A model generated the notes under the pieces. That model saw only the letters and a list, made by a program, of their open reading frames with translations, was not told the origin of the DNA and searched no databases. The position numbers and the translations under genes are program-made. A stretch of 32,572 nt of DNA, from positions 1 to 32,572 of the IMG/VR virus record IMGVR_UViG_3300006810_000193. One strand, given 5' to 3'. Every line of letters starts with the position of its first letter. Within the stretch, counting starts at the first letter, position 1. Positions 187 through 19,860 of this stretch are shown in pieces. The DNA is from a virus.

Positions 187-279
187 GTATATAAAAACGC
201 CCTACTTCCCTAAGCTATAAACGACCCAAAACGCGATCTCGATTTCACTCACTCAAAAAAATTTTTTCATATATAAAAA

Positions 280-471: not shown

Positions 472-478
472 AGACACC

Positions 479-507
479 TTGACGATGCCTAGATAATACT
501 GTATGAT
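479..507 (+). promoter_or_regulatory. Sigma70-like promoter
   Basis: TTGACG at 479-484 and TATGAT at 502-507 are separated by exactly 17 bases. Each box differs by one base from the sigma70 consensus (TTGACA, TATAAT). The predicted transcription start is near 514, about 16 bases before the ATG at 530. It could let the host polymerase transcribe the glycosyltransferase-like gene and its followers early. Confidence 0.6.
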
Positions 508-509
508 AC

Positions 510-522
510 TGAAGTAACTTCA
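510..522. promoter_or_regulatory. Perfect palindrome at the predicted transcription start (operator-like)
   Basis: TGAAGT-A-ACTTCA is a perfect inverted repeat with six-base arms and a one-base centre. It starts three bases after the -10 box at 502-507 and covers the expected +1 site. The position fits a small operator, but 13 bases is short and the binding protein, if any, is unknown. Confidence 0.3.
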
Positions 523-529
523 TTCGATT

Positions 530-1294
530 ATGGCTAAAGGATTTACTGTAAAAGCAAATGCGCCGAGTCCCTCAGAGAAGAAAAAAACAACTGAGTGGGA
601 CTTTGAGAAAGCAAAAGAAATGGTCAAGGGGAAAACCATTGTATTCTGTCTTCCTGGTAGAGGAGTTTCATACACCTACCTGAAGAACTTTGTACAAATG
701 TGTTTTGACCTTGTGCAGGCAGGGGCGAGCATCCAGATCTCGCAGGATTATTCCTCCATGGTTAACTTTGCAAGATGCAAATGTCTTGGAGCAAACGTAC
801 TGCGAGGACCGGATCAAATTCCCTGGGACGGCAAACTAAAATATGATTATCAATTGTGGATTGATTCTGATATTGTTTTCAATACTGAAAAGTTCTGGCA
901 ATTAATTCTTTTGGATAAAGATATTGCAAGTGGTTGGTATTGTACGGAAGACGGGCGAACGACCTCTGTGGCACATTGGTTAGAGGAAGATGACTTCAAG
1001 AATAATGGTGGAGTCATGAATCACGAAACTCTAGAAACAATCGCCAAGCGCAAAAAACCGTTTACCGTGGACTATGCAGGTTTTGGATGGTTGCTCATCA
1101 AGAATGGTGTCTTTGAACACGAAGGTATGAAGTATCCTTGGTTTGCACCCAAGATGCAAGTCTTTGAGTCTGGAGCAGTTCAGGATATGTGTGGAGAGGA
1201 TGTATCATTCTGTCTCGATGCAATCGAAGCAGGATTTGAGATTTGGTGTGATCCTCGCATTCGCGTTGGTCACGAAAAGACTCGGGTTATCTGA
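530..1294 (+). CDS. GT-A-type glycosyltransferase-like protein
   Basis: Encodes 254 residues. A lysine-rich head (about 1-35) precedes a Rossmann-like core starting KTIVFCLPGRG. The hydrophobic segment YDYQLWIDSDIVF places the metal-binding DxD motif at Asp112-Ser113-Asp114. A GED triad at 222-224, just before VSFC, and His248 in VGHEK sit where GT-A enzymes have their acidic catalytic site and second metal ligand. It probably moves a sugar from a nucleotide-sugar donor; the acceptor is not visible. A sigma70-like promoter lies just upstream. No ribosome site is seen, so the leader would be very short. The stop overlaps the next ATG (TGATG). GT-A class is fairly secure; the target (virion protein, host surface or DNA) is unknown. 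Confidence 0.75.
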   Translation: MAKGFTVKANAPSPSEKKKTTEWDFEKAKEMVKGKTIVFCLPGRGVSYTYLKNFVQMCFDLVQAGASIQISQDYSSMVNFARCKCLGANVLRGPDQIPWDGKLKYDYQLWIDSDIVFNTEKFWQLILLDKDIASGWYCTEDGRTTSVAHWLEEDDFKNNGGVMNHETLETIAKRKKPFTVDYAGFGWLLIKNGVFEHEGMKYPWFAPKMQVFESGAVQDMCGEDVSFCLDAIEAGFEIWCDPRIRVGHEKTRVI

Positions 1295-1455
1295 TGAAAG
1301 AGACAAATTATACAATTCTCCATAAAGGAGATATTCTGTATAAGGGATTGACAGAAGAAGAATACTTTGATATTATGGAGGACCTTTCAATAGAGTTCTA
1401 TCAGAAAGGTTCTCCAAGACCTCAAGATCTTGAGACAAAAATGTTTGAATTTTAA
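1294..1455 (+). CDS. 53-residue conserved cyanophage protein
   Basis: ATG 1294 shares one base with the TGA of the previous gene, and the frame runs to TAA 1453-1455. The protein has an acidic centre, LTEEEYFDIMEDLSIEFYQKG, like small cyanomyovirus proteins I recall with a 'SEEEYFDxMEDLA' core and a 'G.P.P.dl.T' tail. This one continues SPRPQDLETKMFEF. No function is known to me. The stop-start overlap implies translational coupling with the glycosyltransferase-like gene. It is soluble, with no membrane segment. Confidence 0.7.
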   Translation: MKETNYTILHKGDILYKGLTEEEYFDIMEDLSIEFYQKGSPRPQDLETKMFEF

Positions 1456-1459
1456 GGAG
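1454..1459 (+). promoter_or_regulatory. Strong ribosome binding site AAGGAG
   Basis: AAGGAG overlaps the stop codon of the 53-residue gene and lies 11 bases before ATG 1471. It is one of the few good Shine-Dalgarno sites in the window and supports the short gene downstream. Confidence 0.6.
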
Positions 1460-1470
1460 CACTAATTATT

Positions 1471-1614
1471 ATGGCAATGCGTTCAAAAATCGGCGGCAGC
1501 AACTTTATGCCCGGGAAACCCAAAAAGTCTCGTCAAGGAACTGGAAAGAATACAAAATATGCTGCTACCTCGCGTAACTCGGCTCGTAAGCGGTATCGTG
1601 GTCAAGGTCGTTAA
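1471..1614 (+). CDS. 47-residue very basic conserved cyanophage protein
   Basis: Encodes 47 residues with many Lys and Arg, Gly and Ser and few acidic residues. It opens MAMRSKIGGSNFMPGKPKKS and ends RKRYRGQGR. It matches a short basic protein I recall as widespread in cyanomyoviruses, of unknown role. The composition suggests nucleic-acid or capsid-interior binding, which is inference. The start is supported by AAGGAG 11 bases upstream. The next gene begins 29 bases after its stop. Confidence 0.75.
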   Translation: MAMRSKIGGSNFMPGKPKKSRQGTGKNTKYAATSRNSARKRYRGQGR

Positions 1615-1643
1615 TACATACATTTAGTATTGTAAAAGTAACC

Positions 1644-2321
1644 ATGGCATGTTTGATTGCTAATCTTCCTTCAATGGAAGTATGGGTTCGTAAAGAATAT
1701 CTAACAGATCATCAAAGTGGTCATGGCGAATTTGTAAAGGGCGTTTGGGTTTCGGTCAAGTCGATTCCCGGACGCGCTTTTTATTTTGAGACTTATTTAC
1801 CAGAATATGCGGCAATGTATGACAAATTGCCCATCAGCGCCTTTGTCTCGGACCCTGAGACCCCTTCTCCTGACATGAGCCTACCAAACCTCCAGTTTTG
1901 GAATTGTATGGACTACGGAGTCGTCTCGGTGGATAAGAAATTTATTGGATCAATGGACTTCGAGTGTTATACAAGAGATCATGGTATTGTAAAAGGCACT
2001 TATATTTGCACAATTGACAATTATCATCATGATCCAGACTATGTTGACTATGCCACAAGCGAAAATCCTGCCGAACATAAGTCACATAATTTGATTGAAC
2101 TTGAAAATGGGCAGTATGCTCTCTATCCAAACAATAGATTACGTATTTTTGACAATAGTTTGACTCCAGTTAATCCAAAAACACCAGATTTTAAGGTTTC
2201 AACCCTATATTATCAAGTTGAAAACGGTCATGACCGCCTTGGAATGGGTCGCGAAGACGAATATTTTTGGAAAACAGCAAAGGAACGGCAAGAATTTATT
2301 GAAGAAGACGAAAATAAATAG
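1644..2321 (+). CDS. Conserved cyanomyovirus protein of unknown function (225 aa)
   Basis: Encodes 225 residues. The opening LIANLPSMEVWVRKEYL, then HGEFVKGVWVSVKSIPGRA and FETYLPEYAAMYDKLPISAF, match a conserved cyanomyovirus hypothetical protein I recall. A central segment (TYICTIDNYHHDPDYVDYA) is rich in His, Asp and Tyr. A later stretch reads NGQYALYPNNRLRIFDNSL, and the tail is acidic. There is no signal peptide, membrane segment or catalytic motif I can name. The chain looks globular and beta-rich. The start has no obvious ribosome site. I cannot assign a function. Confidence 0.75.
   Translation: MACLIANLPSMEVWVRKEYLTDHQSGHGEFVKGVWVSVKSIPGRAFYFETYLPEYAAMYDKLPISAFVSDPETPSPDMSLPNLQFWNCMDYGVVSVDKKFIGSMDFECYTRDHGIVKGTYICTIDNYHHDPDYVDYATSENPAEHKSHNLIELENGQYALYPNNRLRIFDNSLTPVNPKTPDFKVSTLYYQVENGHDRLGMGREDEYFWKTAKERQEFIEEDENK
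2313..2320 (+). promoter_or_regulatory. Weak late-promoter-like box AATAAATA
   Basis: AATAAATA overlaps the last codons of the 225-residue gene and lies 55 bases before the ATG at 2376. It matches seven of eight bases of the T4-type late box. Because the coding sequence here is A-rich it may be chance. Confidence 0.25.
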
Positions 2322-2350
2322 AAAAAAGGGATAGCAACCCCTTAAAAAGT

Positions 2351-2370
2351 TCTGATTTCACCAATCGGAG
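2351..2370 (+). promoter_or_regulatory. Ribosome site partly enclosed in a hairpin
   Basis: TCTGATT (2351-2357) pairs with AATCGGA (2363-2369) through six Watson-Crick pairs and one G-U pair around the loop TCACC. The Shine-Dalgarno GGAG at 2367-2370, five bases before ATG 2376, has three bases inside the stem. Folding would lower initiation. A weaker hairpin, AAGGG/CCCTT at 2326-2343, lies just before it. Confidence 0.35.
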
Positions 2371-2375
2371 CAAAA

Positions 2376-2615
2376 ATGGCAAACTCACCTGTTGATAGAG
2401 ACGTAAATTACATGAGAGAGATGTGGGGAACTGAATCTTTAATTACTGATTACAATGCAAAACTTGAAAAACCCACCAAAAGAGTCATTTCTGAAGTAAT
2501 GCATGACACTGCACCTCGTCATGACTTCAAAAAACAGTCAGAATTGCATGAAAAAATTCGTAATGATGAAGATTATGATGACTGGGAGTATGGAACAGAA
2601 CCAATCTATGGTTGA
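2376..2615 (+). CDS. 79-residue acidic hypothetical protein
   Basis: Encodes 79 residues, preceded by GGAG five bases upstream of the ATG. The chain is hydrophilic, with a Lys-containing middle (LEKPTKRVISEVMHDTAPRH) and a strongly acidic end (NDEDYDDWEYGTEPIYG). No domain, signal peptide or membrane segment is visible. It is the last gene before the late promoter of gp25 and belongs to the less AT-rich left part. I recall similar short proteins in cyanomyoviruses but no function. Confidence 0.65.
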   Translation: MANSPVDRDVNYMREMWGTESLITDYNAKLEKPTKRVISEVMHDTAPRHDFKKQSELHEKIRNDEDYDDWEYGTEPIYG

Positions 2616-2628
2616 TTCCGGAATTGGG

Positions 2629-2636
2629 TATAAATA
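2629..2636 (+). promoter_or_regulatory. T4-type late promoter TATAAATA before gp25
   Basis: A perfect TATAAATA lies 22 bases upstream of ATG 2659. In T4 this box is read by the phage late sigma factor gp55 and is centred about ten bases before the start site, so the leader would be about 16 bases. No other gene start between here and 18283 has a comparable box, so this promoter probably drives gp25, gp6 and the first giant gene. Confidence 0.75.
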
Positions 2637-2658
2637 AATTCAGAAAAATCCTATTAAA

Positions 2659-3060
2659 ATGGCAATTCAGAGGATATCTAGGTCCTTTAAAGACATTAGT
2701 TTATCATTTGAACCACACCCAATAACAAAAGACCTGCAAGTTCTTAAAAATGAAGCAGCGATTCGCAGGTCTGTGAGAAATATTGTAATGACAATACCTA
2801 CCGAAAAGTTTTTTAATCCACTTTTCGGTACTGACATAAGAAAATCTTTATTTGAATTTGTGGATTTTGGTACTGCATCAGTAATTAACAGTCAGATACG
2901 AAATTCTATTAATAATTTTGAATCTAGAATAGATAATCTTCAAGTTTTGGTGAACCCTTATCCCAATTTGAATTCATTTGAAGTGACTATTGTTTTTGAT
3001 ATCATTGGCCAAGAGTTTCCGACACAAGAATATTCTTTCCTATTAGAGGCAACAAGATAA
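2659..3060 (+). CDS. 25: Baseplate wedge protein gp25
   Basis: Encodes 133 residues, against 132 in T4. It has the GPW/gp25 family pattern: an N-terminal strand region, VLKNEAAIRRSVRNIVMTIP (NEAAIRRSVRNI is typical), then KFFNPLFGTDIRKSLFEFVD, then a C-terminal alpha-beta segment with NPYPNLNSFEVTIVFDI. In T4 gp25 joins gp6 and gp53 in the wedge and helps nucleate sheath assembly; the family is also conserved in contractile injection systems. It follows a perfect late promoter and ends one base before the gp6 ATG. No Shine-Dalgarno site is visible. Confidence 0.93.
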   Translation: MAIQRISRSFKDISLSFEPHPITKDLQVLKNEAAIRRSVRNIVMTIPTEKFFNPLFGTDIRKSLFEFVDFGTASVINSQIRNSINNFESRIDNLQVLVNPYPNLNSFEVTIVFDIIGQEFPTQEYSFLLEATR

Positions 3061-3061
3061 T

Positions 3062-5095
3062 ATGCCTTTTACAAAATTTACAAATCTGGATTTTGACCAG
3101 ATAAAAACATCAATTAAAGATTATTTGCGATCCAATTCAGAATTTTCGGATTTTGATTTTGATGGATCAAATTTTTCAGTGTTAATTGATACTCTAGCAT
3201 ATAATACGTATATTAATGCTTTTAATTCAAACATGATTGTGAATGAGTCCTTCTTGGATTCTGCAACACTTCGTGAAAATGTAACATCTCTAGCGAGAAA
3301 TATTGGGTATGTTCCAAGATCTAAAACTGCATCAAACAGTAGAATAACAATATCGGTAGAACCAGAACTGAAGACGGTCAACGGTATCATTCAACCCATA
3401 AGCAGTTCTATAACCCTTAAAAGGGGGTTAGTTTTTACGGGCAATAGAAGTGATACAAACTATGTTTTCTCAACGTTAGAAGACATTACAGTGCCTGTAG
3501 AGGAGATCAAAATCAGAAACGCTGATGGATCTACAACAACAAAATACATAGCAACATTTAAAGACATAAAAATATATCAAGGCATATACTTATCACAAAA
3601 ATTTGATGTTGATAATTCAATTAACCAAAGATTTATTTTGGGTAATTCATCCATTGACACATCTCTTCTTAAGGTCTATGTAAATGAATCAAGTGATCCT
3701 AACGACAATCAATCTTTAGGAACTGAATACCGATTGCTTGATAATATTGTTAATGTAAAACCTATTGATCCGATATACTTACTTCAAGAAATTCAAGATG
3801 AAAAATATGAGTTGTTTTTTGGAGATGGTATTATCGGGAAAAAGGTTGACAGTGGTGTAGTAACTGCAAACTATATCGTAACGGATGGAAGAGATGGAAA
3901 TGGAGTTAAAGAGTTTTCATTTGCCGGTAATTTAGTAACTAACAATCTATCAGTATTAGGTTCTAGCGAACAATCTATAAAGTTGTTGAGCAATATCATT
4001 TTTGGATATTATCAAAAATCTGAAGATGGAACATATGCTGTTATTTCTGTTTCTCCTACATCTTCCAGTAATGGAGGAGATATTGAATCAATAGAGTCAA
4101 TTAAAAGATATGCTCCTAGAATCTATTCAACTCAGAATAGAGCTGTTACTTCGAATGATTATGAAAATTTAATAAAACAAATATATCCAAATACGGAATC
4201 GGTTTCTGTTGTTGGTGGTGAAGAAATGGATCCTCCACAATATGGAAATGTTCAGATTTCTATAAAACCAAAAAATGGATATTTTGTATCAGATTTTGAT
4301 AAAAGTAGAATATTGACGGATTTAAAAAAATATTCAATATCTGGAATTAATCAAAGAATAATTGATTTGAAAGTTATTTTTGTTGAAATTGATACTTCAA
4401 TTTATTATGATGACACAAAAATTTCTACAGCGGATTCTCTTAAAACTCAAATTATCTCTACTCTCACTAATTATTCAAATAGTTTAGATTTAAATAAATT
4501 TGGTGGCAGATTTAAGTATAGTAAAGTTTTAGGAATTATTGACAATACAAATAGAGCGGTTACGTCAAATATCACAAAAGTAAAAATAAGAAGAAATCTT
4601 ATAGCATTTATAAATCAATCCGCACAATATGAACTATGTTTTGGTAATGAGTTTCATGTTAAGTCTGGTCAATACAATATAAAGTCTACAGGATTTACAA
4701 TTTCGGGGGAAACTTCTACAGTTTATTTGACTGATACTCCAAACCCAGACAAAAAAACTGGAATTTTATCAATAATCAAAATTTTATCATCCGGTGAAAT
4801 TAGAGTTGTGGCAAAATCTGCCGGTATTATAGATTACAAAAAAGGAGAAATAAATTTAACTACAATAACAATAACTTCAACTCAAAGAGATAATAATATT
4901 ATAGAAATAGAAGCGATACCAGAATCAAATGATATTGTTGGATTAAAAGATTTATATATCAATTTTAATCTTGAAAAAAGTAAAATAAATATGGTAAAGG
5001 ATGTAATATCTTCTGGCGAAGAAAGTTCCGGATCTGTATTTATTCGGAATTCATACACTTCAAGTTACTTAAACGGCACACTATTTAGAGAGTAA
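3062..5095 (+). CDS. 6: Baseplate wedge protein gp6 (baseplate J-like)
   Basis: Encodes 677 residues, against 660 in T4. The N-terminus is characteristic: FTNLDFDQIKTSIKDYLRSN, then LIDTLAYNTYINAFNSNM and ATLRENVTSLARNIGYVPRS. Further on are ELFFGDGIIGKKV and a J-like segment, RAVTSNDYENLIKQIYPN and VSVVGGEEMDPPQYGNVQIS. In T4, gp6 dimers with gp7 form the wedge core and the inter-wedge ring that changes diameter during contraction. The gene starts one base after the gp25 stop and ends one base before the next ATG, so the three are probably co-transcribed and coupled. Confidence 0.93.
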   Translation: MPFTKFTNLDFDQIKTSIKDYLRSNSEFSDFDFDGSNFSVLIDTLAYNTYINAFNSNMIVNESFLDSATLRENVTSLARNIGYVPRSKTASNSRITISVEPELKTVNGIIQPISSSITLKRGLVFTGNRSDTNYVFSTLEDITVPVEEIKIRNADGSTTTKYIATFKDIKIYQGIYLSQKFDVDNSINQRFILGNSSIDTSLLKVYVNESSDPNDNQSLGTEYRLLDNIVNVKPIDPIYLLQEIQDEKYELFFGDGIIGKKVDSGVVTANYIVTDGRDGNGVKEFSFAGNLVTNNLSVLGSSEQSIKLLSNIIFGYYQKSEDGTYAVISVSPTSSSNGGDIESIESIKRYAPRIYSTQNRAVTSNDYENLIKQIYPNTESVSVVGGEEMDPPQYGNVQISIKPKNGYFVSDFDKSRILTDLKKYSISGINQRIIDLKVIFVEIDTSIYYDDTKISTADSLKTQIISTLTNYSNSLDLNKFGGRFKYSKVLGIIDNTNRAVTSNITKVKIRRNLIAFINQSAQYELCFGNEFHVKSGQYNIKSTGFTISGETSTVYLTDTPNPDKKTGILSIIKILSSGEIRVVAKSAGIIDYKKGEINLTTITITSTQRDNNIIEIEAIPESNDIVGLKDLYINFNLEKSKINMVKDVISSGEESSGSVFIRNSYTSSYLNGTLFRE

Positions 5096-5096
5096 T

Positions 5097-6335
5097 ATGA
5101 TAACGACTGGTATTGAATCTAAAGTAAAGATTCAGGATATTGTTTCTAATCAAGTACCATCTTTTATTTTAGATGAAAGTCCAAAATTTGTAGATTTCTT
5201 GAAAACGTATTATACGTCTCAAGAATATCCTGGTGGACCAGTAGATTTATCTGAAAATTTGGATCAATATTTAAAGTTAGATAATCTAACTCCAGAAGCT
5301 ATTGTTGGATTTACTACACTAACGTCCAATGTTGATTCGGATTCTTCCGTAATATATGTTTCTAGCACTAGGGGATTTCCGAGAAAGTATGGTCTTTTAA
5401 AAATTGATGATGAAATTATTACATATACTGGTATTACCACAAATTCCTTTACAGGATGCGTTCGTGGATTTAGTGGAATTACAAATTATCATAATGAATT
5501 TGATAGTGAAGAATTAATATTTGACTCTTCTAGTTCAAATTCTCATACTGCAACAAAATCTGTAGAGAATTTAAGTTCATTATTCCTTAAAGAATTTTTT
5601 GAAAAGTTAAAAATTACATTTTCTCCTGGATTTGAGGGTGTAAATTTAAATAAAAATATTGATGTAGGTAATTTTATTAAAGAAGTAAGATCATTTTATT
5701 CATCTAAAGGTACAGATGCTTCTATTGAGACTTTACTCAGAATTCTTTTTGGAAAGTCTGGAAAAACTATAAATCTTGAGCAATATTTAATAAAACCATC
5801 AGATTCCGATTTTATTAGAAGAGAGGTTATTATTGTTGAAGGAATTAGTGGTGATTTATCAAAGTTATCTGGGCAAACAATCTATAAAAATACCGATTCT
5901 GAAACTAGAGCAGTAGTTTCTGAGGTAGAACCATTTACAAGAAAGGATAAAGTTTATTATAAGTTATATGTTTATGTTGGATATGATGATAAATTATCAA
6001 TTGAAGGCACGTTTGAAATAACACCCTCAACAAAATCTTGCGATAAAGTATTGCCAGAATCTGAAGTAATCACTGTAGATTCTACTATTGGATTTAGTCC
6101 CTCAGGCATTATTTACTCTGGCAATAATATTATTACATACAAAGAAAAATCTGTTAATCAGTTTTTAGGATGTGTGGGGATAGTATCTACAATTAACAAA
6201 ACTGGTAATATTATTTCAGATAAAACTTATTATGGATTTGAAGGTGGAGATATCTCAAAAAAATGCACATTTAGAATAACTGGAGTTATTTCCGATATTT
6301 CTAATATTAATAATGATAAAGTCTCTGTGTCCTAA
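5097..6335 (+). CDS. N-terminal segment of the giant baseplate protein (gp7 position), ended by an in-frame TAA
   Basis: Encodes 412 residues. It opens VKIQDIVSNQVPSFILDESP and FVDFLKTYYTSQEYPGGPVD, a start I associate with large cyanophage baseplate proteins encoded after gp6. At about residues 75-140 is a 'surface strand' module: YVSSTRGFP, LKIDDEIITYTGI and CVRGFSG. Next comes a helical region, KEVRSFYSSKGTDASIETLL, which looks like the gp53/gp7-type wedge-binding part. A degenerate second module lies near the end. The frame stops at TAA 6333-6335, but the same frame then stays open to 18230. I therefore think this is the N-terminal tenth of one 4,377-codon gene and not an independent gene. 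By position between gp6 and gp8 the whole matches T4 gp7 (1,032 residues). Confidence 0.8.
   Translation: MITTGIESKVKIQDIVSNQVPSFILDESPKFVDFLKTYYTSQEYPGGPVDLSENLDQYLKLDNLTPEAIVGFTTLTSNVDSDSSVIYVSSTRGFPRKYGLLKIDDEIITYTGITTNSFTGCVRGFSGITNYHNEFDSEELIFDSSSSNSHTATKSVENLSSLFLKEFFEKLKITFSPGFEGVNLNKNIDVGNFIKEVRSFYSSKGTDASIETLLRILFGKSGKTINLEQYLIKPSDSDFIRREVIIVEGISGDLSKLSGQTIYKNTDSETRAVVSEVEPFTRKDKVYYKLYVYVGYDDKLSIEGTFEITPSTKSCDKVLPESEVITVDSTIGFSPSGIIYSGNNIITYKEKSVNQFLGCVGIVSTINKTGNIISDKTYYGFEGGDISKKCTFRITGVISDISNINNDKVSVS
6333..6335 (+). other. In-frame TAA inside the giant gene (readthrough, nonsense mutation or sequence error)
   Basis: The codons read GTG TCC TAA AAT CAG. The stop is codon 413 of the frame starting at 5097. 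The next 50 codons have no stop and look coding (for example NKTYKEIFANSWIYNTSTS at 6387-6443). The first in-frame ATG after it is at 7365. Single-base alternatives such as AAA, CAA, GAA or TAT would restore the frame. Confidence 0.85.
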
Positions 6336-6485
6336 AATCAGATTATAAGTATTAAGTATCTTGGAGATAATATAAGAAATCCTATTACAGAAAATAAAAC
6401 TTATAAAGAAATTTTTGCAAATTCTTGGATTTATAATACATCAACGTCAATTGATATTGAGTCGATATTATCCAGCAATATTACA

Positions 6486-9400
6486 TTGAAAACTAATATT
6501 GATAAGTCTCAATTTAAAGTTGGTGATAGAATTGAAATTATTGATCGAGGATCTAGAGAAGTAGTTTATCCTTTGTTGCCTGGGGATATTCCTTTTGTTG
6601 AAAGTGTAGATCAAAATAGTGAAGGTTTATTAAATTCTTTATCATTAAGGAACTTTAATCCTGAACTGGAGACTGGAAAATTATATTCTATTAGAAGAAT
6701 AATTAATAAAGCATCTAGTGTAAGTGTTCCCATAGAATATGGAAATGATCAAATCATTTCTGATATTCAAAACCTTTATACTAATAAAATTGGCGAGGAA
6801 GAGTATGCATATGTTGCATCAAATGGATTGCCATCATCAGAATTCAGAGATTCTCAAGTTTATAATTTTGATATAGATCCAGAAACTCAAAAAAGACCAA
6901 AAATTCCATCAGTTATTGATATTGATCAGGCAATTTACCAATATCAAATTGATCAGACTTCTGTAGATCCTCTTCAAGATGTTGATCAACAAACACTTTT
7001 ATCTAGTGGTGTTAAAAGATTTACTACTATAAGTTTTCCAGACAGAGTTAAGTTTTTAACTGGTGATAGAGTATATTATTATCCAGAATCCAATCCACTT
7101 ATTGGATTAGTAGAAGGATCTTATTATGTTAAGGTTTTTGATAACGCAAGAAAAATAAATTTATATACCTCAAAATCGCATATTGGTTCAAGTGTGCCAA
7201 GTTTAAGTTTTTATGCTTCAAGTACAGGTATAGGAACACATACATTTACTTTATACGAACATAGGTCAAATTTAATTAAACCAAAAAAAATATTTAAAAA
7301 GTTCACATTAAATCCAAATTTAGAATCTGGTAACAATCAAGAAACTACTCCTGGGCCAACAGGAATGTTGATAAATGGAGTTGAGATTGGAAATTATAAA
7401 ACAGAAGATAAAATATATTATGGACCACTAACATCAGTAAATGTTATATCTCCTGGAAAAAATTATGATGTTATAAATGAACCAAAATTAAAGATAACAA
7501 GTCCAAATAATGGAATTGATGCTAATGTTCAAACAGTGGTTACTGGAAAAATAGAAGATATTATTTTAGATTCTAGAGATACTAAATTCAATCTTGATGG
7601 AGAAGTATCAGTAAACATTAGTGGAGGAAATGGAACTGGAGGATTATTTGCTCCAATTATTGTTAGGAAAAGACTTGAATTATTATTTAATGCAAATCCA
7701 GTTACTCAAGGTGGTGGTATAGGCACTGCAACAAACCAAATAACTTTTATTGATGAGCATGGTCTCATTGATGGACAATCCATAATTTATAGAAATGAGA
7801 CGAACAGTCCAAATGTTCCTATTGATAGTGACGGAAATACTTTACCAGATACTACTCTTATCAATAATGCATCATACTTTGTTAGAGTTGACAATAATAA
7901 AACAATTCAGTTATTTGAATCAGCTTTTGATTATCAAAATAATAATCCAGTTTTGTTTAACCTTAATGTTACGACTGCAGAATATGGATATGGTGGTATT
8001 CAGAAATTTTTAGTTGGTGAAGATTCAAGTGTTTTAAGTGAAATAAAAATATTAGACTCTGGATCTTTTACCAACAGAAAATTGATAGTAAAACCTGTTG
8101 GAATTAATACACTAAACAACACCATTAACTTCAAAAATCATGGATTTAATAGTGGAGAATTAATTGAATATAATTTTGATAGCACAACAGGTATTGGCAT
8201 ATCAATTACTCCAAATATAGGACTTTCTACGTCTACAGATACAAATTATCTTGTGCTAAAAGTAGATGATGATTCATTTAGAATTTGTGATGCTGGAATT
8301 GGAGGAACTATTACAAGCAATTTTGATAAAGAAAAATTCGTCAGATTTCACAGTAGTGGATCTGGATATCATTATTTTAAATATCCAGATATTAAAGTTT
8401 CTGTTACTGTTAGATCCTCTGGGTATGGTGAAAAGAATATAAGAGCATTTCCAGTAATAAAAGGATCTATAGTTGATGCATATTTGTATGAGTCTGGATC
8501 TGGATTTGGATCAAATATTTTAAATTTTGAGAAAACTCCTTCTATTAATGTAATAGAAGGAAAAAAAGCACAAATTTCTCCCGTAATATCTTCAGGTCTC
8601 GTAATAGACACAAATATTCAATTTAGTGGATATGATTATTTTTCTACCCCAGAGATAACTGTATTTGACCCAACAGGATCTGGATCTGGTGCAAAATTAA
8701 TTGCTAATGTTGAGGATGGAAAAATAAATGAAGTAATCATTCAAAATTCTGGAAGAGGATATTCAGATAGTAGTAGAATAGAAATAGTTAATTCGGGATC
8801 TGGTGCATTATTTGAGTCAAATGTAAGACCACTTAACGTTAATAATGTAAATAAGATACCAGAAAAACAATATCAAATTTTAAAAGATATAAATGGAACT
8901 AGTTTAAATTATCTCATTTCTGGTTATTACGATAATCTTAGACAAACTTTTAGAGATACGGGATCTTCTAATTCAAATATTATTGGTTGGGCGTATGATG
9001 GAAATCCTATATATGGCGCATATTCTCAAACAGACCCAAATGACAAAACATCTCCAACAAAGAGAATGGAGTCTGGATATAATTTGAGTTTGGATAATAT
9101 TCCTGATAGACCATCAATAACAGACTTTCCTTTAGGATTTTTTATTGAAGATTACTCTTTTGATGGAAGCGGAGATTTGGATAAAAATAATGGTAGATAT
9201 GCAAAAACAAATGAATTTCCAAACGGTGTCTATGCCTATTATGCAACTATAGATATAAACAATAATCCAGTTTTCCCATATTTTATTGGAAATAATTATA
9301 GATCAAATATTCTTGATGATAATAAAACGTTAGATCAAGATTTTGATTTAAATAATTCTGGTTTTTTAAGAAATACATTTCCATATAAGATTTCTGAACT

Positions 9401-12400
9401 TAATTCGGATAATGATTTTATTATAGAAACTAATGAAATATCAAGGCAAAAAACTAAAATAGAATCTATAAGAAGTGGACCTATTGATCAAATTGAGATC
9501 ATTAATCCAGGAACAAACTATAATGTTGGTGATGAGTTAGTATTTGACAATACAAAAACCGAAGGTGGTGGAGCTATTGCAAAAGTATCTTTAGTTGGAG
9601 GAAAAACTATTGAAAATATTCAACAGAATATAGTAAATTATGATCAATCGGTAGTTACTTGGGAAGATAATACAACTCTTAGAATAACAACTCCATCCGA
9701 ACATAATTTTTCTTCTGGAGATTATGTTTCTATTTCTGGTATTGCTACTGTTATTCCATCTCCTCCCATATTAAAACTTGAAGGGGCATACAAAAAAATA
9801 ACTGTAGATCAACCTGTAGTTCTCACTTTAGAAGATGAAATTGTTGCTTCTCCTGAGAGCCCTGCTGGATATGCAACGACTGAAATTTTTGTTTCTAACA
9901 TTTCTGAGAAATTAAGTCCGGATACAGAATTACTGATAGGCGACGAAACCTTAACTATTTTAAATATATTTCCAAATGAAAATGCACTTAGAGTGCAAAG
10001 AGGAAACCCATCCGAAACTCACTCGGTAGGTGCATCTCTTACTGCAAAAAATTATGACTTTACAATTAAAGAAAATTTTGAATCATTTGATTCAAAATTA
10101 AATAATAAAGTTTATTTTAACCCTCACGAATCTGTTGGACTGGGGACAACGGCGGGAGAAACTTATAGCGTAACACTTGGATTTGGAACATCTAGAACTA
10201 TTAGTAGATCAATTTTATCTGGAAGTATTTACTTAGAAAATCATAAATTTAATGTTGGTGATAAAGTCCGTTTACATTTAAATGATGTCAACGGCAACGG
10301 GACTCTGAATAGTAGGATTCCAGTAACAGATACCTTAGGAACTCCAAATATAATTGAAATTTTAGATGGAGATGTTTTATATATTGCAAAGAAAACTCCA
10401 AACTCAGTAGGACTTGCTACAAATAAAGATGATTTAAATAATATACTATATTACAGAGAACCTTTTACAGCGACTAATATAGACAATTACTACTTAGTGT
10501 CCAATTATAATCAAGAATATGCAAATATTGATAAAATTACTGCAACTGTGTCAATATCAACTTCACATGGACTTGTAAATGGTGATATTGTTAAACTGTC
10601 TGTAGAACCAAATTTAAATGTTGGTGTTGGAACTTCAATATCAGTAAAAGTTATTAGGAATTATGATCAAACTATTGGTATAAACACGGTTTTATCAGGT
10701 ATATCATCATATCCACAATCCGGAAATAATCTTCCTTGGGTATTTACTACGTCTCCACAAAAACATAACTTTAAAACGGGTGATAAAATACTTTATTCTA
10801 ATATAAACTCTATAGTTCTTGGATATGGGTCATCAGATTTCCATTTGACTGCTAATGATTCTGATCCAGAAATGCAAAATGTTTCATTTTATGCTCGCGT
10901 TCTTAGTGATACTGATTTTAGTGTAAGTGAGACATATGAAGATACATTTAAACCATCCGTAAATGGAAAAACTTCATTAAGTATAACTAATGGACCTAAT
11001 GCTCCTACCGATCCATCTTGGTCATGGGGAGGCAATATTCATGTATGGACACTAGTAAACCCACAAATTGAAGTTACTAAAGGAAATAATATTGTCTTTG
11101 ATGTTTCTGATCCATCATTAGTAGGAAATAATTTCAAAATTTTCTATGATGAAGATTTTAATAATGAATTTATAACTGATTCTAATAGCGAAACATTCAA
11201 TGTTGCTTCAGTTGGAACGGTTGGAGTTAGTAGTAATGCTTCAGTTACAATCAATTATTCCGGCGCTTTACCTAAAAAATTATTCTATAATCTGGAAAGT
11301 TCCTCTGGTTTGGGTATATCTACAGTAAGCAAAGATGTAGTGAATTACAATCGGATTTCATATGTAGATAGTAATTATACTGGTTCTTATCCAGTCATTG
11401 GAATTGGGACAACAACAGATGTTACATTTGATATTTCTCTAACAAAAGAAAGTGAAAGAGTTTCTTATGCAAAGTCAGAATCTAGCAAATTAGAATATAA
11501 TACACTCTCTCATACTGCGATTGGACCTATTAAAAATATTGATGTTGTGTCTAGGGGGGAAAATTATAAAAAGTTACCACCAATTACATCAATAGAATCA
11601 AAATTAGGTAACGGTGCTATTTTAATTTGCAATTCTGATATTATAGGATCAATAAATGAAGTAGAAATTTTAGATACTGGTTTTGAATATTCTTCTGATC
11701 AAACTCTTTCGCCAAGAGCATTTGTCTCTCCTTCAGTTAGTTTGAGAAATTCAAATATTTTAAAAGATATTGAAGTAATAAAAGGAGGATTAAATTATAC
11801 TAATCCCCCAACAACTGTTCTTGTTGATTCTATAACTAGAGATTCTATAAAAGGTGGATTAATAAACGCAAATCTTTCTGCACAATCCATATCATCAATT
11901 GATATCGAGATAACTCCATATGGAGTAAGTGGTGATGCAGAACTCTTTGTTGAAAATAATTCAAATGGTATCAGTATTATATCAGTTGAATCAAGCAACA
12001 GTGGTATATTTACATGCACTTTAAATACTCCTATATTAGGATTTTCGCAAGACTCAATAATTAATGTTGGAGATTTAGTTTATATTGAGGGTATTCAAAA
12101 ATATAGTGAGGATGGTAGTGGATTCAATTCATCAGATCTTGGATATAGATTTCTTAAAGTATCTGGATATCAAAAATTAAGTGAAGATCGTATAACTATT
12201 GATGCTTCAGAATATACAAGTAATACTGGAATTGCTAAAACAATTCAAGATTCATCAGGAACAATAATTAATAAGAAAAATTATCCAGAATTTAATGTAA
12301 TTACACAATCATCTTTATTCTCTGTGGGAGAATCTTTATTAGTTAATGGTGTTGAAGTTGACTTAAAAGTAGAATCTAATACAAATGATACTGACTTAAA

Positions 12401-15400
12401 AGTCGTAGGCTCTTATGAGTTATTTGTCAATGACAAGATTGTTGGAAAATCATCAGGAAATACTGCATACGTTTCTACTATTGAAAAAGCAGATGCAGTT
12501 TATAAAGTTGATTATTCTATTAAAAAAAGATTTGGATGGCAATCAACAACTGGAAGATTGAGTGAGGATTATCAAGTAATTCCGGATAATGATTATTATC
12601 AAACTCTTTCTTACTCAATAAGAAGTCCTCTAACTTGGGATGAAGTAAAAACTCCAGTTAATAATCTGGTTCATGTGTCTGGCATGAAAAACTTTGCAGA
12701 TACTGAAATAATGTCTAATAATGATTCTATAAGTGGAATTACTAGTGCTAATACTGATCTTGATATCTTCTTAGATTTGATTAGTGAACAAAGAGTTGAT
12801 ACTATTCATAATTTTGATAATGCTAGAGTCATTGATGTTGTGAATGGAATATCTAAAATTTTAGAATTTGAAAAATCAGTTTTCATACCATACACTGAAG
12901 CAATAACTAATTCAGTATTAAAAATTGATGATATTTCTCCAGAATTTTCTCAGTTTGAATCAGAACCACTTCCATATAGAGATTTATTTGAAATAAATCC
13001 AGTAAGAGACTATAGAAATTATACATTTAAATTGACAAGTGTTGATGGCACACAATTACAATTAACTAGATTAGCAATATTATCAAATCCAAGTGAAGAA
13101 TCATTCTCTCTTGAGCAAGAATCTTTAGCAAATGTTGGAACTGGTATTACACATTTGGATGGTGAATTATATGGAGAATTTTCTTTAGTAACAACAGAAT
13201 TTGAAGAAACTTTCTTGAGATTTACTCCAAAAGATCCATTTACCACTGAATATGATATAAAATATTTGGAAAAAAGATTTGGTGACAGTGCGGTTGGTGT
13301 AGCAACAACTTCAATCGGATTTATTGATTTAGTTAGTGCAGTAACTGGTGTTACTACTGGAGTTGGGACTAGAGATTTAATTAGTCTACCCAAAAATGAT
13401 TATACATCTGTGTATATTGATGTTTCACTTAATACCCTTATTAGTAATAACTTAAATGTTGTTCGGTTATATGCAACACATGATGGAGCAGCATCAAGCA
13501 TTACATCATATATGTTTGACTCAGAAACAACAAACATATCTAAAGAACCTATTGGTATATTTACCTCAGTAATAGATGGTGATGACTTTAAGATCAGATA
13601 TACGAATGATGAAGAAATTGAAACCGTAGTTGTTAGAGCTAGATCAATTTGTTTTGGTGATTATGACCAATCATTAAATCCAGAAGACACATATCATTTC
13701 AATCTTCCTGGACAACCAGAAGGTTCAGAAAGGTCGGTTTTCTATAAATCCACCCATGTCGAAACTAGCGATACTGCATCTAATTTACCAATTGGAATAT
13801 GCACTGTAAATAAAAATACAGTAGATGCTATTCAATCCGTTGTTGAAGTTACAGTCTCTGGATCTGCAGGAGCTGCTTATACTGGAACTGCATTATATGA
13901 TGTAACTTTCCTATCAGATTCTACTAACACATATAGTCAAGAGGGTCCTGCATTATATCGCACAGATGATGTTTCTGGAATTGGTACTTTTGGTGCTGAA
14001 TTAGTCAATAATGATTTTATAGTTAATTTCTATCCTAATGATAGACAAAATCAAGGCACTATAACAATTAAGGCACTTTCTGAGTGTTATTATAGAGATG
14101 TAGATACTGTTAATATTGCTCCACCACTACAATATGGTTCTGTAATTGAAACTCTCAAGACATTCGAATATTTTGCATTAGAAGGGGAAAGAATTAACAA
14201 GAAAAACTTTGTCCTTCGCCATGAAACAGTTCCCATTTTTGCAAAGACTATTAATCCTCAAGATACAACACAGTTTAATCCATCAACTGGCATATTTAAT
14301 ATCCCAAATCACTTCTTCAGTGATGGTGAGGAAGTGAGTTATACTGCAACATCAACTTTTATTGGAGTAACACCTTCTAAAATTCAATATGATAATGGTG
14401 GCACATTAACAGATTTGCCAGATACAGTTTACATATCTCTTGAAAGTGATTTTGAATATGATACCTTTAGGATTAAATTATCTCCTGGTGGTTCCGCATT
14501 GACCAATTTAACTACAGGAGGTGGTAATGCTCATATCTTCTCTATGAGTAAGTCTTTAAGTAAGGCTATTCTTTCAATTGATGGTATGGTCCAGAGTCCT
14601 ATTGCGTTTACAAATATTACTTACAATTTACAAGGAAATGTAAATGGCGAAGTTACTGCAGAGGCAACAACTTTTGCATTAAGTGGAATTACAACTGTAA
14701 ATGTTTCTGATATTATTAAAGTTGATGATGAACTTATGGTTGTCAGATCCGTTGGATTTGGAACTACAAGTCTCGGTCCTGTAACTGGAATTGGACAAAC
14801 TACTATTGTAACAGTTGAAAGAGGTATTTTAGGAACAGAACCGTCTTTACATAGTGATTATACTGGCACTCCTGGTGTCGGCATCGCAAGTATATTTAAG
14901 GGATCTTACAACATAATTAATGATGAGGTTCATTTCATAGATGCGCCAAAAGGAAATTCATCAATTACAAGAACTGAAAATAATTTAAAATTCCAAACTT
15001 CTGAATTTACAGGTAGAGCGTTCTTAAGAAAGGATTACTCAACGAATAGAATATATGACGATATATCAAATGAATTTAATGGAATTGGAAGAACATTTAC
15101 ATTAACTGTAAATGGTTCTAGTGATGTTGGTATCGGCACGAGTGGTGGTAATGGACTCGTTCTTATTAACGGAATATATCAAACTCCTTCAGCATTAAAT
15201 AACCCTGAAAATAATTTTGAAATTATTGAGGAAGCTCCTTCGGTAAATGTTCCATCTGGAATATCTAGTGTAAGATTTACTGGTTTAACAACTAGTGGTG
15301 GCATCTTTATATCCGAAGAAGATGTCAATCAAAATCAAATTCCTAGAGGTGGACTAATTGTTTCTATTGGATCTTCTGGTGGTCTTGGATATGCGCCTCT

Positions 15401-18230
15401 TGTAGGTGCAGAGATTGATTTAATCACTAATCATCACCTACCTTCAAATTGGGGAGTAAATCCATCAAATCCTGATTTAGGTATCGGTTTAGTTGTTGGA
15501 AAATTTGTTACTGAAGTATCTTCAGAAGGCACGTTTACGGGAAGTAGTGATACAATTACCGGGATTAATACTTCCGGAATCTCTACTGGAATGGAACTAC
15601 AAAATAGTGATAATGTTGCATATGGACAAACAGTAACAAACATTGGAAATTCTGAAGTTACAATTAGTAGTTCCAGCTACATTGGTCATGGAACAACATC
15701 TATTAATTTTGGTTTTAGAAAACCACTCGGTGGATCTGGATATTTTAATAATCCAACCGTTTCAATTGCTACTACAACATCTGGAACTGATGCAGTAATT
15801 ACTGCAACGGTAGGTGCGGGTGGAACCGCAATATTCAATATTATTACTGCCGGATCTGAGTATCCGGACTATCCACAGGCATTTGTTTCTGAACCTTCTT
15901 ATGAAAATCTTGAAGTTGTTGGTGTTTCTAGAGTAGGTCTTGGTGCAACTACTGATACTGGAGTTGGATTACTAATGGATATTGAAGTTGGTGCAGCAGC
16001 AACAACTGGAATTGGATCAACAACCAGCGAAGTTAGAGGATTTAAAATTAAGAGACAGGGATATTCATTTAAAAAGGGTGATATATTCACTCCTGTCGGA
16101 CTAGTAACCGCTACTGGATTGTCTTCTCCAATTGAACAACTTCAATTTGAAGTCTTAGAGACCTATGATGATTCATTTGCAGCATGGCAATTTGGTGAAC
16201 TTGAATTTATTGATACGATTAAACCATATCAAGATGGTATTAGAACTAGATTCCCATTATTCTTCAAAGGTGAGTTGTTTAGTGTTCAGGTTGCAGAAGA
16301 ATCAAGAATGAATGTTGAAAATTCACTCTTAATCTTTGTCAATGGAGTATTACAGAATCCTGGAGAAAATTATTCCTTTAGTGGTGGAGCATCATTTACA
16401 TTCTCAGAACCACCTAAAACGGGAGATCAAATAGCAGTATTCTTCTATAGAGGAACTGCAGATATAGATGATAGGCAAATTGGTTCTGTCATACCAACTT
16501 TGGAAAGAGGTGATGAGGTTCAAGTTAAGGAATATTTGAATATTTCTGGACAAAATTCCAGAAGAGTTTTTGATTACAAAGAATCTGATGTATTAGAAAC
16601 TTCTCCATATAAAGGTAAAGGAGTTTTTGGAGAGGATTCTGGTGAGATTGGAAGAACTTTTAGACCAGTTTCTTGGACTAAACAAAAGAAAGATTTAGTT
16701 CTTGGTGGAGATATTGTATATAAAACAAGAAGATCCTTACTCGGACAAATATATCCAACAACTAATATCATTAAAGATGTCAATCCAGGTGATACTGAAA
16801 TGTATGTTGAAAATGTAGATTTGTTAGTCTATGAAAATCCTTCTGCATTTCTAGGAGAACAAATTAAATTATTCCTTATTGATGATAATACAGATTTTGT
16901 TCCTGCAGAATTTAATGTGGGCATTTCAAATGGATCTATTGACACGTTTGAAATAACCAATCCAGGAGCAGGTTATACAAGTAATGATGGATCTCTTACA
17001 TTAATTGTAAATGATCCACCATATACTATAAGACCTGGATGGCCAGATACGGTTGAAGTAGAAGAAGGAAATCTTATCAATGTTTCAAATAATTTATCCC
17101 TTCCTCCACAAAGATCTTCAGTTGGAATACTAACTGTAGCGATTGGCATTGGTGGAACTCTCATGAACCCTTCAATAACAAATTCTGGTGCTGGTTATAC
17201 TGTAGCACCAACTGTTGCTGCCCCATTACCACCTGCAAATGAGGAAGTTGTTGGAGATTTGAATACATTAGAAGGATTTAGTGGTATTGTTACTTCAATA
17301 CGTCAAAGTGGAACTTCTGGTGGAGAGGTAGTTCAATTTAGTTTAGATAATCCATTGGAAGACTGGGTATGGGATACTAGTTATGTTGGTTCCGATACTG
17401 GAAGTGTTGTAATCCAGGATACTACAGTTCCATTTTACAGTGGTGGTACTGGTGTTGAATGGACAGTTTATTTTGTTGATAGAGTATTTACTAAGATAGT
17501 AATGACTAATAGGGGTTCTAACTATCCATTTGACCTAGCTTCCGCACAAGCTCTTAATTCTAACTTTGGTTATCCAATCAAAATTACACCAAGTATACCT
17601 CAGGCATCCAGTTCATCTTCGATACAAATTGATAAGGTAATGGCTTCAGCACATAATATTGCCAAAATTGAATTTGATCTTAGAGAACAATATTTAAATG
17701 ATAATATGGATGCAATTAATAATAATGATTTTAATGAAGATGGTACTTTGGGAGTAGGTGATTACATATCTATTACAGGCACTAGTGTTCCAAGAGGTGA
17801 TTATTTTGAAACATTAGATCTTGCTGTTCAATCACAAATAGTTCTGGGTTCTGCTAATTATGATAGTTCTGGTAGACAATCTTCTGGTAGACCATCAGTT
17901 TCAATAGCATCAACATATATGGATTCTATTTACAAAGTAGAAGAATATGATAGAAAAGATGGTAATAGAACCGGAATTATAACATCTTTTGCTTATATTA
18001 ATGATTTGACTAATCTTCCAACTGCAGATGTGAGTGATGGGGCTGCGATTGGTAACTTCTCTTGGGGTAAAATTGGAATTACTAATACTATTACCGGCAC
18101 ATACAAAGTGTTTGGTAATACTGTTGATGCAGATTTGACAAATTACACAACTGTCCAGAGAAGAAGTTCTGGTCTCAGAGATACTGGATCACTGACTCCA
18201 GGACCTGGAATTGCTATAACATCCAATTAA
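6486..18230 (+). CDS. Giant baseplate/virion structural protein (main part; gp7 position)
   Basis: From TTG 6486 the frame gives 3,914 residues, but coding potential begins at 6336, directly after the TAA, and is continuous with the frame from 5097. TTG 6486 has no ribosome site, so this start is only formal. The protein is a string of beta-rich modules. At least seven copies of an 'H.F..GD.V.Y' module lie between about 7.7 and 14.3 kb, with a related copy near 7.0 kb. Many 'G.GY...P.v.i' repeats are present. A YHYH-like domain is at 8979-9306 (GWAYDGNPIYGAY, NGRYAKTNEFPNGVYAYYAT, FPYFIG). Three 'I.VNG..Q.P' modules are near 14.57, 15.16 and 16.34 kb, and there is an 'SSGNTAYV' module near 12.45 kb. 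It lies between gp6 and gp8, like T4 gp7, but is about four times as long. It presumably forms the wedge periphery and carries fibre or receptor-contact parts. I see no membrane segment or protease motif. Confidence 0.85.
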   Translation: MKTNIDKSQFKVGDRIEIIDRGSREVVYPLLPGDIPFVESVDQNSEGLLNSLSLRNFNPELETGKLYSIRRIINKASSVSVPIEYGNDQIISDIQNLYTNKIGEEEYAYVASNGLPSSEFRDSQVYNFDIDPETQKRPKIPSVIDIDQAIYQYQIDQTSVDPLQDVDQQTLLSSGVKRFTTISFPDRVKFLTGDRVYYYPESNPLIGLVEGSYYVKVFDNARKINLYTSKSHIGSSVPSLSFYASSTGIGTHTFTLYEHRSNLIKPKKIFKKFTLNPNLESGNNQETTPGPTGMLINGVEIGNYKTEDKIYYGPLTSVNVISPGKNYDVINEPKLKITSPNNGIDANVQTVVTGKIEDIILDSRDTKFNLDGEVSVNISGGNGTGGLFAPIIVRKRLELLFNANPVTQGGGIGTATNQITFIDEHGLIDGQSIIYRNETNSPNVPIDSDGNTLPDTTLINNASYFVRVDNNKTIQLFESAFDYQNNNPVLFNLNVTTAEYGYGGIQKFLVGEDSSVLSEIKILDSGSFTNRKLIVKPVGINTLNNTINFKNHGFNSGELIEYNFDSTTGIGISITPNIGLSTSTDTNYLVLKVDDDSFRICDAGIGGTITSNFDKEKFVRFHSSGSGYHYFKYPDIKVSVTVRSSGYGEKNIRAFPVIKGSIVDAYLYESGSGFGSNILNFEKTPSINVIEGKKAQISPVISSGLVIDTNIQFSGYDYFSTPEITVFDPTGSGSGAKLIANVEDGKINEVIIQNSGRGYSDSSRIEIVNSGSGALFESNVRPLNVNNVNKIPEKQYQILKDINGTSLNYLISGYYDNLRQTFRDTGSSNSNIIGWAYDGNPIYGAYSQTDPNDKTSPTKRMESGYNLSLDNIPDRPSITDFPLGFFIEDYSFDGSGDLDKNNGRYAKTNEFPNGVYAYYATIDINNNPVFPYFIGNNYRSNILDDNKTLDQDFDLNNSGFLRNTFPYKISELNSDNDFIIETNEISRQKTKIESIRSGPIDQIEIINPGTNYNVGDELVFDNTKTEGGGAIAKVSLVGGKTIENIQQNIVNYDQSVVTWEDNTTLRITTPSEHNFSSGDYVSISGIATVIPSPPILKLEGAYKKITVDQPVVLTLEDEIVASPESPAGYATTEIFVSNISEKLSPDTELLIGDETLTILNIFPNENALRVQRGNPSETHSVGASLTAKNYDFTIKENFESFDSKLNNKVYFNPHESVGLGTTAGETYSVTLGFGTSRTISRSILSGSIYLENHKFNVGDKVRLHLNDVNGNGTLNSRIPVTDTLGTPNIIEILDGDVLYIAKKTPNSVGLATNKDDLNNILYYREPFTATNIDNYYLVSNYNQEYANIDKITATVSISTSHGLVNGDIVKLSVEPNLNVGVGTSISVKVIRNYDQTIGINTVLSGISSYPQSGNNLPWVFTTSPQKHNFKTGDKILYSNINSIVLGYGSSDFHLTANDSDPEMQNVSFYARVLSDTDFSVSETYEDTFKPSVNGKTSLSITNGPNAPTDPSWSWGGNIHVWTLVNPQIEVTKGNNIVFDVSDPSLVGNNFKIFYDEDFNNEFITDSNSETFNVASVGTVGVSSNASVTINYSGALPKKLFYNLESSSGLGISTVSKDVVNYNRISYVDSNYTGSYPVIGIGTTTDVTFDISLTKESERVSYAKSESSKLEYNTLSHTAIGPIKNIDVVSRGENYKKLPPITSIESKLGNGAILICNSDIIGSINEVEILDTGFEYSSDQTLSPRAFVSPSVSLRNSNILKDIEVIKGGLNYTNPPTTVLVDSITRDSIKGGLINANLSAQSISSIDIEITPYGVSGDAELFVENNSNGISIISVESSNSGIFTCTLNTPILGFSQDSIINVGDLVYIEGIQKYSEDGSGFNSSDLGYRFLKVSGYQKLSEDRITIDASEYTSNTGIAKTIQDSSGTIINKKNYPEFNVITQSSLFSVGESLLVNGVEVDLKVESNTNDTDLKVVGSYELFVNDKIVGKSSGNTAYVSTIEKADAVYKVDYSIKKRFGWQSTTGRLSEDYQVIPDNDYYQTLSYSIRSPLTWDEVKTPVNNLVHVSGMKNFADTEIMSNNDSISGITSANTDLDIFLDLISEQRVDTIHNFDNARVIDVVNGISKILEFEKSVFIPYTEAITNSVLKIDDISPEFSQFESEPLPYRDLFEINPVRDYRNYTFKLTSVDGTQLQLTRLAILSNPSEESFSLEQESLANVGTGITHLDGELYGEFSLVTTEFEETFLRFTPKDPFTTEYDIKYLEKRFGDSAVGVATTSIGFIDLVSAVTGVTTGVGTRDLISLPKNDYTSVYIDVSLNTLISNNLNVVRLYATHDGAASSITSYMFDSETTNISKEPIGIFTSVIDGDDFKIRYTNDEEIETVVVRARSICFGDYDQSLNPEDTYHFNLPGQPEGSERSVFYKSTHVETSDTASNLPIGICTVNKNTVDAIQSVVEVTVSGSAGAAYTGTALYDVTFLSDSTNTYSQEGPALYRTDDVSGIGTFGAELVNNDFIVNFYPNDRQNQGTITIKALSECYYRDVDTVNIAPPLQYGSVIETLKTFEYFALEGERINKKNFVLRHETVPIFAKTINPQDTTQFNPSTGIFNIPNHFFSDGEEVSYTATSTFIGVTPSKIQYDNGGTLTDLPDTVYISLESDFEYDTFRIKLSPGGSALTNLTTGGGNAHIFSMSKSLSKAILSIDGMVQSPIAFTNITYNLQGNVNGEVTAEATTFALSGITTVNVSDIIKVDDELMVVRSVGFGTTSLGPVTGIGQTTIVTVERGILGTEPSLHSDYTGTPGVGIASIFKGSYNIINDEVHFIDAPKGNSSITRTENNLKFQTSEFTGRAFLRKDYSTNRIYDDISNEFNGIGRTFTLTVNGSSDVGIGTSGGNGLVLINGIYQTPSALNNPENNFEIIEEAPSVNVPSGISSVRFTGLTTSGGIFISEEDVNQNQIPRGGLIVSIGSSGGLGYAPLVGAEIDLITNHHLPSNWGVNPSNPDLGIGLVVGKFVTEVSSEGTFTGSSDTITGINTSGISTGMELQNSDNVAYGQTVTNIGNSEVTISSSSYIGHGTTSINFGFRKPLGGSGYFNNPTVSIATTTSGTDAVITATVGAGGTAIFNIITAGSEYPDYPQAFVSEPSYENLEVVGVSRVGLGATTDTGVGLLMDIEVGAAATTGIGSTTSEVRGFKIKRQGYSFKKGDIFTPVGLVTATGLSSPIEQLQFEVLETYDDSFAAWQFGELEFIDTIKPYQDGIRTRFPLFFKGELFSVQVAEESRMNVENSLLIFVNGVLQNPGENYSFSGGASFTFSEPPKTGDQIAVFFYRGTADIDDRQIGSVIPTLERGDEVQVKEYLNISGQNSRRVFDYKESDVLETSPYKGKGVFGEDSGEIGRTFRPVSWTKQKKDLVLGGDIVYKTRRSLLGQIYPTTNIIKDVNPGDTEMYVENVDLLVYENPSAFLGEQIKLFLIDDNTDFVPAEFNVGISNGSIDTFEITNPGAGYTSNDGSLTLIVNDPPYTIRPGWPDTVEVEEGNLINVSNNLSLPPQRSSVGILTVAIGIGGTLMNPSITNSGAGYTVAPTVAAPLPPANEEVVGDLNTLEGFSGIVTSIRQSGTSGGEVVQFSLDNPLEDWVWDTSYVGSDTGSVVIQDTTVPFYSGGTGVEWTVYFVDRVFTKIVMTNRGSNYPFDLASAQALNSNFGYPIKITPSIPQASSSSSIQIDKVMASAHNIAKIEFDLREQYLNDNMDAINNNDFNEDGTLGVGDYISITGTSVPRGDYFETLDLAVQSQIVLGSANYDSSGRQSSGRPSVSIASTYMDSIYKVEEYDRKDGNRTGIITSFAYINDLTNLPTADVSDGAAIGNFSWGKIGITNTITGTYKVFGNTVDADLTNYTTVQRRSSGLRDTGSLTPGPGIAITSN
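8979..9306 (+). other. YHYH-like domain inside the giant protein
   Basis: The segment reads IIGWAYDGNPIYGAYSQ, then SPTKRMESGYNLS, then an aromatic and acidic stretch with GDLDKNNGRYA, then EFPNGVYAYYATID and NNPVFPYFIGNNY. This closely follows my memory of the YHYH family found in secreted bacterial proteins and some cyanophage structural proteins. The YHYH motif itself is not present in the usual place before GWA.DG.PIYG. Confidence 0.65.
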
Positions 18231-18282: not shown

Positions 18283-19860
18283 ATGGCAGCTATAGTAACA
18301 GATCAATTTAGAATCCAAAATGCAACAACATTTATAGATTCTCTGACAAATAATTCCTATTATGTATTTTTAGGACTTGCAAATCCTTATGATGCTGGTG
18401 GAAGTAGTATAGGATTTGGAAGAACTACATCTTGGGATCCAGATAGTGCTGGAGGTTCAATACCACCTCCACCGGTAGATAATCAAAGTTATTTGTCTCA
18501 TTATAGAGATACTATATTGTTTGGAAAAAGAATATCTCAATCCAATGTGAGAAGAGTTATAAAAAAAGTAGAGTGGTCTGCAAATACCAGATACGATATG
18601 TATCGTCATGATTATGACATTTATAATCGTTCTCCTAATTCAGATTCCTCAAAATTGTATGATTCAAATTTTTATGTAGTAAATAAGGATTATAGAGTTT
18701 ATATTTGCCTCTATAATGGATCTAGTGGAAATAATTTAAAAGGAGAACCGTCTCAAGATGAACCACTTTTTACTGATTTAGAACCTTCGGTTGCCGGAGA
18801 TAGTGGTGATGGATATATTTGGAAATATCTTTTTACAATAGCTCCATCAGATATTGTAAAGTTTGATTCTACAGAGTATATTGTATTGCCAAATAATTGG
18901 TCAACTAGTACGGATTTTGAAATAAAATCTATCAGAGATGCTGGTAACTCTACATCCAATAATAACCAAATAAAAATCGTATATATTGAAAAATCTGGAA
19001 ATACTTTTTATAAAACTGGAACATACCCAATATTAGGAGATGGTACAGGTGCAGAAGTTCAAATTACAGCAAATAATTCCGGAGAAATTGTTAGGACAAA
19101 GGTAATTAATGGTGGTAGTGGATATACTTATGGTATTGTAGATTTAAAATCTCAATCATCTATACCTTCATCAAGTTTGGCAAAACTAGTCCCAATTATA
19201 CCCCCATCAAAAGGACATGGATATGATATTTACACCGAACTTGGTGCAGATAAGGTATTAATTTATGCTAGGTTTGATACTTCAACAAAAGAATTTGTGG
19301 CAAATACAAAATTTGCTCAAGTGGGAGTCATAAAAAATCCTGAGTCATTAAATTCAAGTTCTGTTATATCAAGCAATACATTTAGTGGATTATATGCAAT
19401 AAAATTGAATGGCACTCCTGAAAATTTACCAATAATTGGTAAAATTATCAGTCAAACAACATCGAATGATCAAAGTAAGTCGGCAAAGGGTTACATTGCT
19501 GCATATGATCAAGAAACAAATGTATTAAAGTATTATCAAGATAGATCATTATATCTTACCAATGCTATTAATACTGTAGATAGTTCTGCTATAACAAATT
19601 CTGGTCAATTATTACCATTTGAATCTTCCGGAATTTCAATTACTGCCGAAAATTTTGAAGGTTCTATTGATACCACTTTTAATGGAAGTACCGTTGAATT
19701 AAATGACGGTATAATTGGATTGGGAGTAACTTTTGTTGGTGGACTTGCTGAACCAGAGATAAATAAAGGTACTGGAGATATTATCTACATCGATAACAGG
19801 TCTATTGTTTCAAGAAGCATTAGACAAAAAGAGGACGTTAAAATTATTCTGGAATTCTAA
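18283..19860 (+). CDS. 8: Baseplate wedge protein gp8
   Basis: Encodes 525 residues; T4 gp8 has 334. The N-terminus AIVTDQFRIQNATTFIDSL followed by YYVFLGLANPYD matches the gp8 start (T4 has AIVTSKFRTEKMLNFYNSI then IYVSFGR). Further on are PPVDNQSYLSHYRDTILFGK, VEWSANTRYDMY and GDGYIWKYLFTI, the gp8 core. A 'G.GY' module (VINGGSGYTYGIVDL, near residue 277) and SKGHGYDIYTELGADKVLI follow in the extra C-terminal part. In T4, gp8 dimerises and stabilises the outer wedge on gp7. It has its own late promoter and ends three bases before the next ATG. Confidence 0.9.
   Translation: MAAIVTDQFRIQNATTFIDSLTNNSYYVFLGLANPYDAGGSSIGFGRTTSWDPDSAGGSIPPPPVDNQSYLSHYRDTILFGKRISQSNVRRVIKKVEWSANTRYDMYRHDYDIYNRSPNSDSSKLYDSNFYVVNKDYRVYICLYNGSSGNNLKGEPSQDEPLFTDLEPSVAGDSGDGYIWKYLFTIAPSDIVKFDSTEYIVLPNNWSTSTDFEIKSIRDAGNSTSNNNQIKIVYIEKSGNTFYKTGTYPILGDGTGAEVQITANNSGEIVRTKVINGGSGYTYGIVDLKSQSSIPSSSLAKLVPIIPPSKGHGYDIYTELGADKVLIYARFDTSTKEFVANTKFAQVGVIKNPESLNSSSVISSNTFSGLYAIKLNGTPENLPIIGKIISQTTSNDQSKSAKGYIAAYDQETNVLKYYQDRSLYLTNAINTVDSSAITNSGQLLPFESSGISITAENFEGSIDTTFNGSTVELNDGIIGLGVTFVGGLAEPEINKGTGDIIYIDNRSIVSRSIRQKEDVKIILEF

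Follow-up and report, generated by a model that had tools for sequence, protein, structure and literature searches.

Giant baseplate wedge proteins of the gp7-like type (PHROG 2885) are known from cyanomyoviruses, e.g. gp194 of S-SRM01 and gp7 of P-SSM2. Their genes are arranged in the order gp25-gp6-gp7-gp8-VrlC. In-frame stop codons inside phage genes are known from phage stop-codon reassignment, e.g. code 15 in crAss-like phages (PMC9523058). Literature searches yielded nothing on the gp7-like gene.

The stretch of DNA analyzed here (the window) is a 32,572-base cyanomyovirus record of IMG/VR, probably a fragment. It carries a gene of the same gp7-like family in the same gene order, and the match is full-length and collinear. 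The window copy differs from the cyanomyovirus genes by one internal TAA. An in-frame stop in a phage gene is shared with the code 15 phages. Unlike in those phages (PMC9523058), the window contains one isolated TAA that does not recur, and TAA ends most of its genes. Very probably, the TAA is a nonsense change of a single base, private to one assembled copy of a giant gp7-like gene that is otherwise uninterrupted; it would represent either an error or minor-variant call or a very recent null allele.

The interrupted gp7-like gene

The frame 5097-18230 comprises 4,378 codons, with the final TAA counted. The original prediction had described a single TAA interrupting this frame, and frame reading confirmed codon 413 as the sole internal stop (Table 1). 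The assignment to a baseplate gene and the coding-like character of the sequence past the stop were upheld as well. The frame is matched on both sides of the stop by PHROG 2885, a baseplate wedge subunit family with a profile of 4,179 positions, and the match continues across the stop nearly unbroken, with profile positions 2-404 before and 415-1344 after the TAA. Five consecutive, ordered segments of the frame together cover positions 2-4178 out of 4179 in the profile, leaving small gaps. The gene is located between gp25/gp6 and gp8 homologues and is also flanked by a VrlC-like gene. Judged from sequence, the frame is a real coding sequence of a gp7-like baseplate wedge gene.

Table 1. Coordinates of the gp7-like gene, its internal stop and its neighbors in the window
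Feature	Position	Strand	Basis
Internal TAA in the gp7-like frame; Glu (GAA/GAG) in relatives	6333..6335	+	Frame reading and homologue alignment
First 412 codons of the gp7-like gene (N-terminal part), ending at the stop	5097..6335	+	PHROG 2885, profile 2-404
Rest of the gp7-like gene; 3,964 open codons; collinear with uninterrupted homologues	6336..18230	+	
gp6-like baseplate wedge gene, intact; upstream neighbor	3062..5095	+	
gp8-like baseplate wedge gene, intact; downstream neighbor	18283..19860	+	

Codon 413 in homologous loci

Alignment with homologues had been proposed as a check together with the original prediction. Codons were compared in 68 sequences spanning the site, comprising the window and 67 other homologous loci. 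Protein-guided IMG/VR scans recovered loci whose N-terminal part is up to 73% identical to the window. A sense codon was found in 67 of the 67 other loci, all of which run through the site in a single frame; the stop occurs in the window alone. The codons at the site are GAA (33), GAG (20), AAA (5), GAT (4), GAC (4), GTG (1) and TAA (1). Since the glutamate codons GAA and GAG account for 53 of the 68 sequences, one G-to-T change explains the TAA. Glutamate is present at the site in 103 sequences of a larger homologue set. The closest relatives, L016, L020 and L021, share approximately 66-70% identity with the window over the aligned stretch and carry GAA. Their peptide reads VSVS-E-NQII against VSVS-*-NQII in the window, encoded by TCA/TCT GAA AAT and TCC TAA AAT, respectively. 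This one-base difference in the codon is directly observed; a G to T substitution in a glutamate codon of one assembled copy would have created the stop. The homologues G001 (4,374 codons), G002 (4,484 codons) and S-SRM01 (3,895 codons) are uninterrupted, and the gene of S-SRM01 is annotated in GenBank as one CDS. Presumably, the population expresses the gene as a single polypeptide of about 4,377 residues.

A pattern scan of viral contigs that allowed any codon at 6333-6335 revealed no further sequence nearly identical to the site. The contig IMGVR_UViG_3300025853_012895 is 99.96% identical to the window and begins at window position 9835, so the codon lies outside the overlap. Five differences are located in gp7 (9862, 10363, 12529, 12829 and 13584), all in codon position 1 or 2 and all changing the amino acid. 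Outside gp7, one difference occurs, at a third codon position. At 12829, the window encodes valine, whereas the contig and 97 homologues encode aspartate; hence, at least one more odd change is private to the window gp7. This lends mild support to an error in this copy or to a relaxed constraint on it, the five differences being too few for a test.

Isolated stops in other gp7 genes

A survey covered 229 dereplicated gp7 loci with about 715,000 codons. Internal stops were present in three loci (L011, L174 and L184), all TAA, each at a different gene position and none at the window site. Relatives of L011 have GAA at the interrupted codon. The stop in L174 falls within an insertion without counterpart, and that in L184 (TAA at L184:43-45) is close to the end of the contig or stored locus. 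Stops at the 5′ end were rejected as internal stops; they represent the gp6 stop, as queries extended upstream of the gp7 start. With the window included, four isolated stops occur in roughly 719,000 codons. Occasional errors or infrequent null alleles would produce isolated TAAs scattered at such a low rate.

A serine codon TCT or TCC precedes the TAA at L011:8497-8499, at L174:8756-8758 and at 6333-6335 of the window. This context was noticed post hoc and may be a coincidence. TCY represents 4.9% of the codons in the window gp7-like gene. The four isolated stops are without exception TAA, and in three cases the preceding codon is TCT or TCC. This counts against a reading as error or null allele, which offers no explanation for it.

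The deposited gp7 homologue of S-SKS1 shows three frame changes, at about 12860, 17606 and 20930, and no CDS is annotated on its first 7 kb. Runs of A are located near the frame breaks, and sequencing error is a candidate cause.

Constraint downstream of the stop

The gp7-like gene contains no second stop after the TAA. For an unselected downstream part, 565 new stops are expected per unit neutral divergence. The probability of finding no second stop falls below 5% past 0.0053 substitutions per site, while the nearest relative is at a dS of approximately 1. Were the downstream part unselected, the age of the change would thus be limited to approximately 0.005 substitutions per site. The missing second stop agrees with an error or with a mutation of very recent date. 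A functional readthrough would agree with it as well, and therefore the non-conservation of the stop among relatives is the deciding evidence.

Private amino acid changes in the window and in G001 numbered 38 and 41 before the stop, and 433 and 414 after it, respectively (Fisher p 0.64). The part after the stop shows no excess of window-specific changes, and neither decay nor faster protein evolution is seen there. The dN/dS values after the stop were 0.33 for window-G001, 0.30 for window-G002 and 0.30 for G001-G002. Apart from gp7, the genes of the window are intact and follow the gene order of G001. Each aligns full-length except the open frame 32305-32571, which is truncated by the window end and aligns to G001 only over residues 1-34.

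Readthrough, recoding and restart

Programmed or suppressor-mediated readthrough of UAA would yield the full-length protein, in agreement with the usual constraint downstream and the missing second lesion. The window covers just 32.6 kb of the phage genome, and a suppressor tRNA may be encoded elsewhere. Against this stands the stop's occurrence at the site in 0 of 67 other loci. The 13 window genes contain one in-frame stop in a total of 10,250 codons, whereas TAA ends 9 of the 13; TAA is thus not generally read as sense. A recurrent use of TAA as a sense codon, expected from stop-codon reassignment, was not found in the 10,250 codons of the window. In pseudoknot-free folding, the 101 nt that follow the stop form less stable structures than shuffled sequences do (z +1.57), and no tRNA gene is present within the 32.6-kb window. 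With no stop at the site in other loci, and no readthrough signal, RNA structure or tRNA gene found in the window, the readthrough considered in the original prediction was judged highly improbable. A variant in which leaky termination or a suppressor tRNA encoded beyond the window lets UAA be read through, involving the recurring Ser(TCY)-TAA context, appears just as improbable. After a +1 frameshift at TCC-TAA, translation would reach another stop within a few codons, and the homology picks up again in the original frame; thus, frameshifting is not needed.

In a true gene split, the downstream part would restart at TTG 6486, at another near-cognate codon or at ATG 7365. The break is located in a length-variable linker past the N-terminal region, which suits a split. 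The earlier observations that TTG 6486 is not preceded by a ribosome-binding site and that ATG 7365 is the earliest in-frame ATG after the stop were both confirmed, the former speaking against a restart there. TTG 6486 is present in only 6 of the 68 sequences, and no ATG, GTG or TTG column is conserved downstream of the break. None of the surveyed relatives possesses two genes here. Given neither a conserved start nor a split gene among the 67 other loci, unusual initiation or a gene split is very unlikely.

Origin and meaning of the stop

The private nonsense change remains the preferred reading. An assembly consensus error or a minor-variant call is probably the source of the TAA; a genuine, very recent null allele is possible, though rather unlikely. 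The simpler explanation in the original prediction, a base-call error or a dying allele, therefore stood, based on GAA in the nearest relatives and on 67 uninterrupted loci; programmed readthrough and unusual initiation did not. The TAA itself is present in the record, but the proposed break or readthrough is very unlikely to be a real biological feature of the phage, and a new mechanism of expression is not indicated. Readthrough, if true, would be a new mode of expression for a probably essential component of the tail. As the case illustrates, a comparison with relatives should precede any proposal of recoding when an isolated stop turns up in a very long phage gene from a metagenome.
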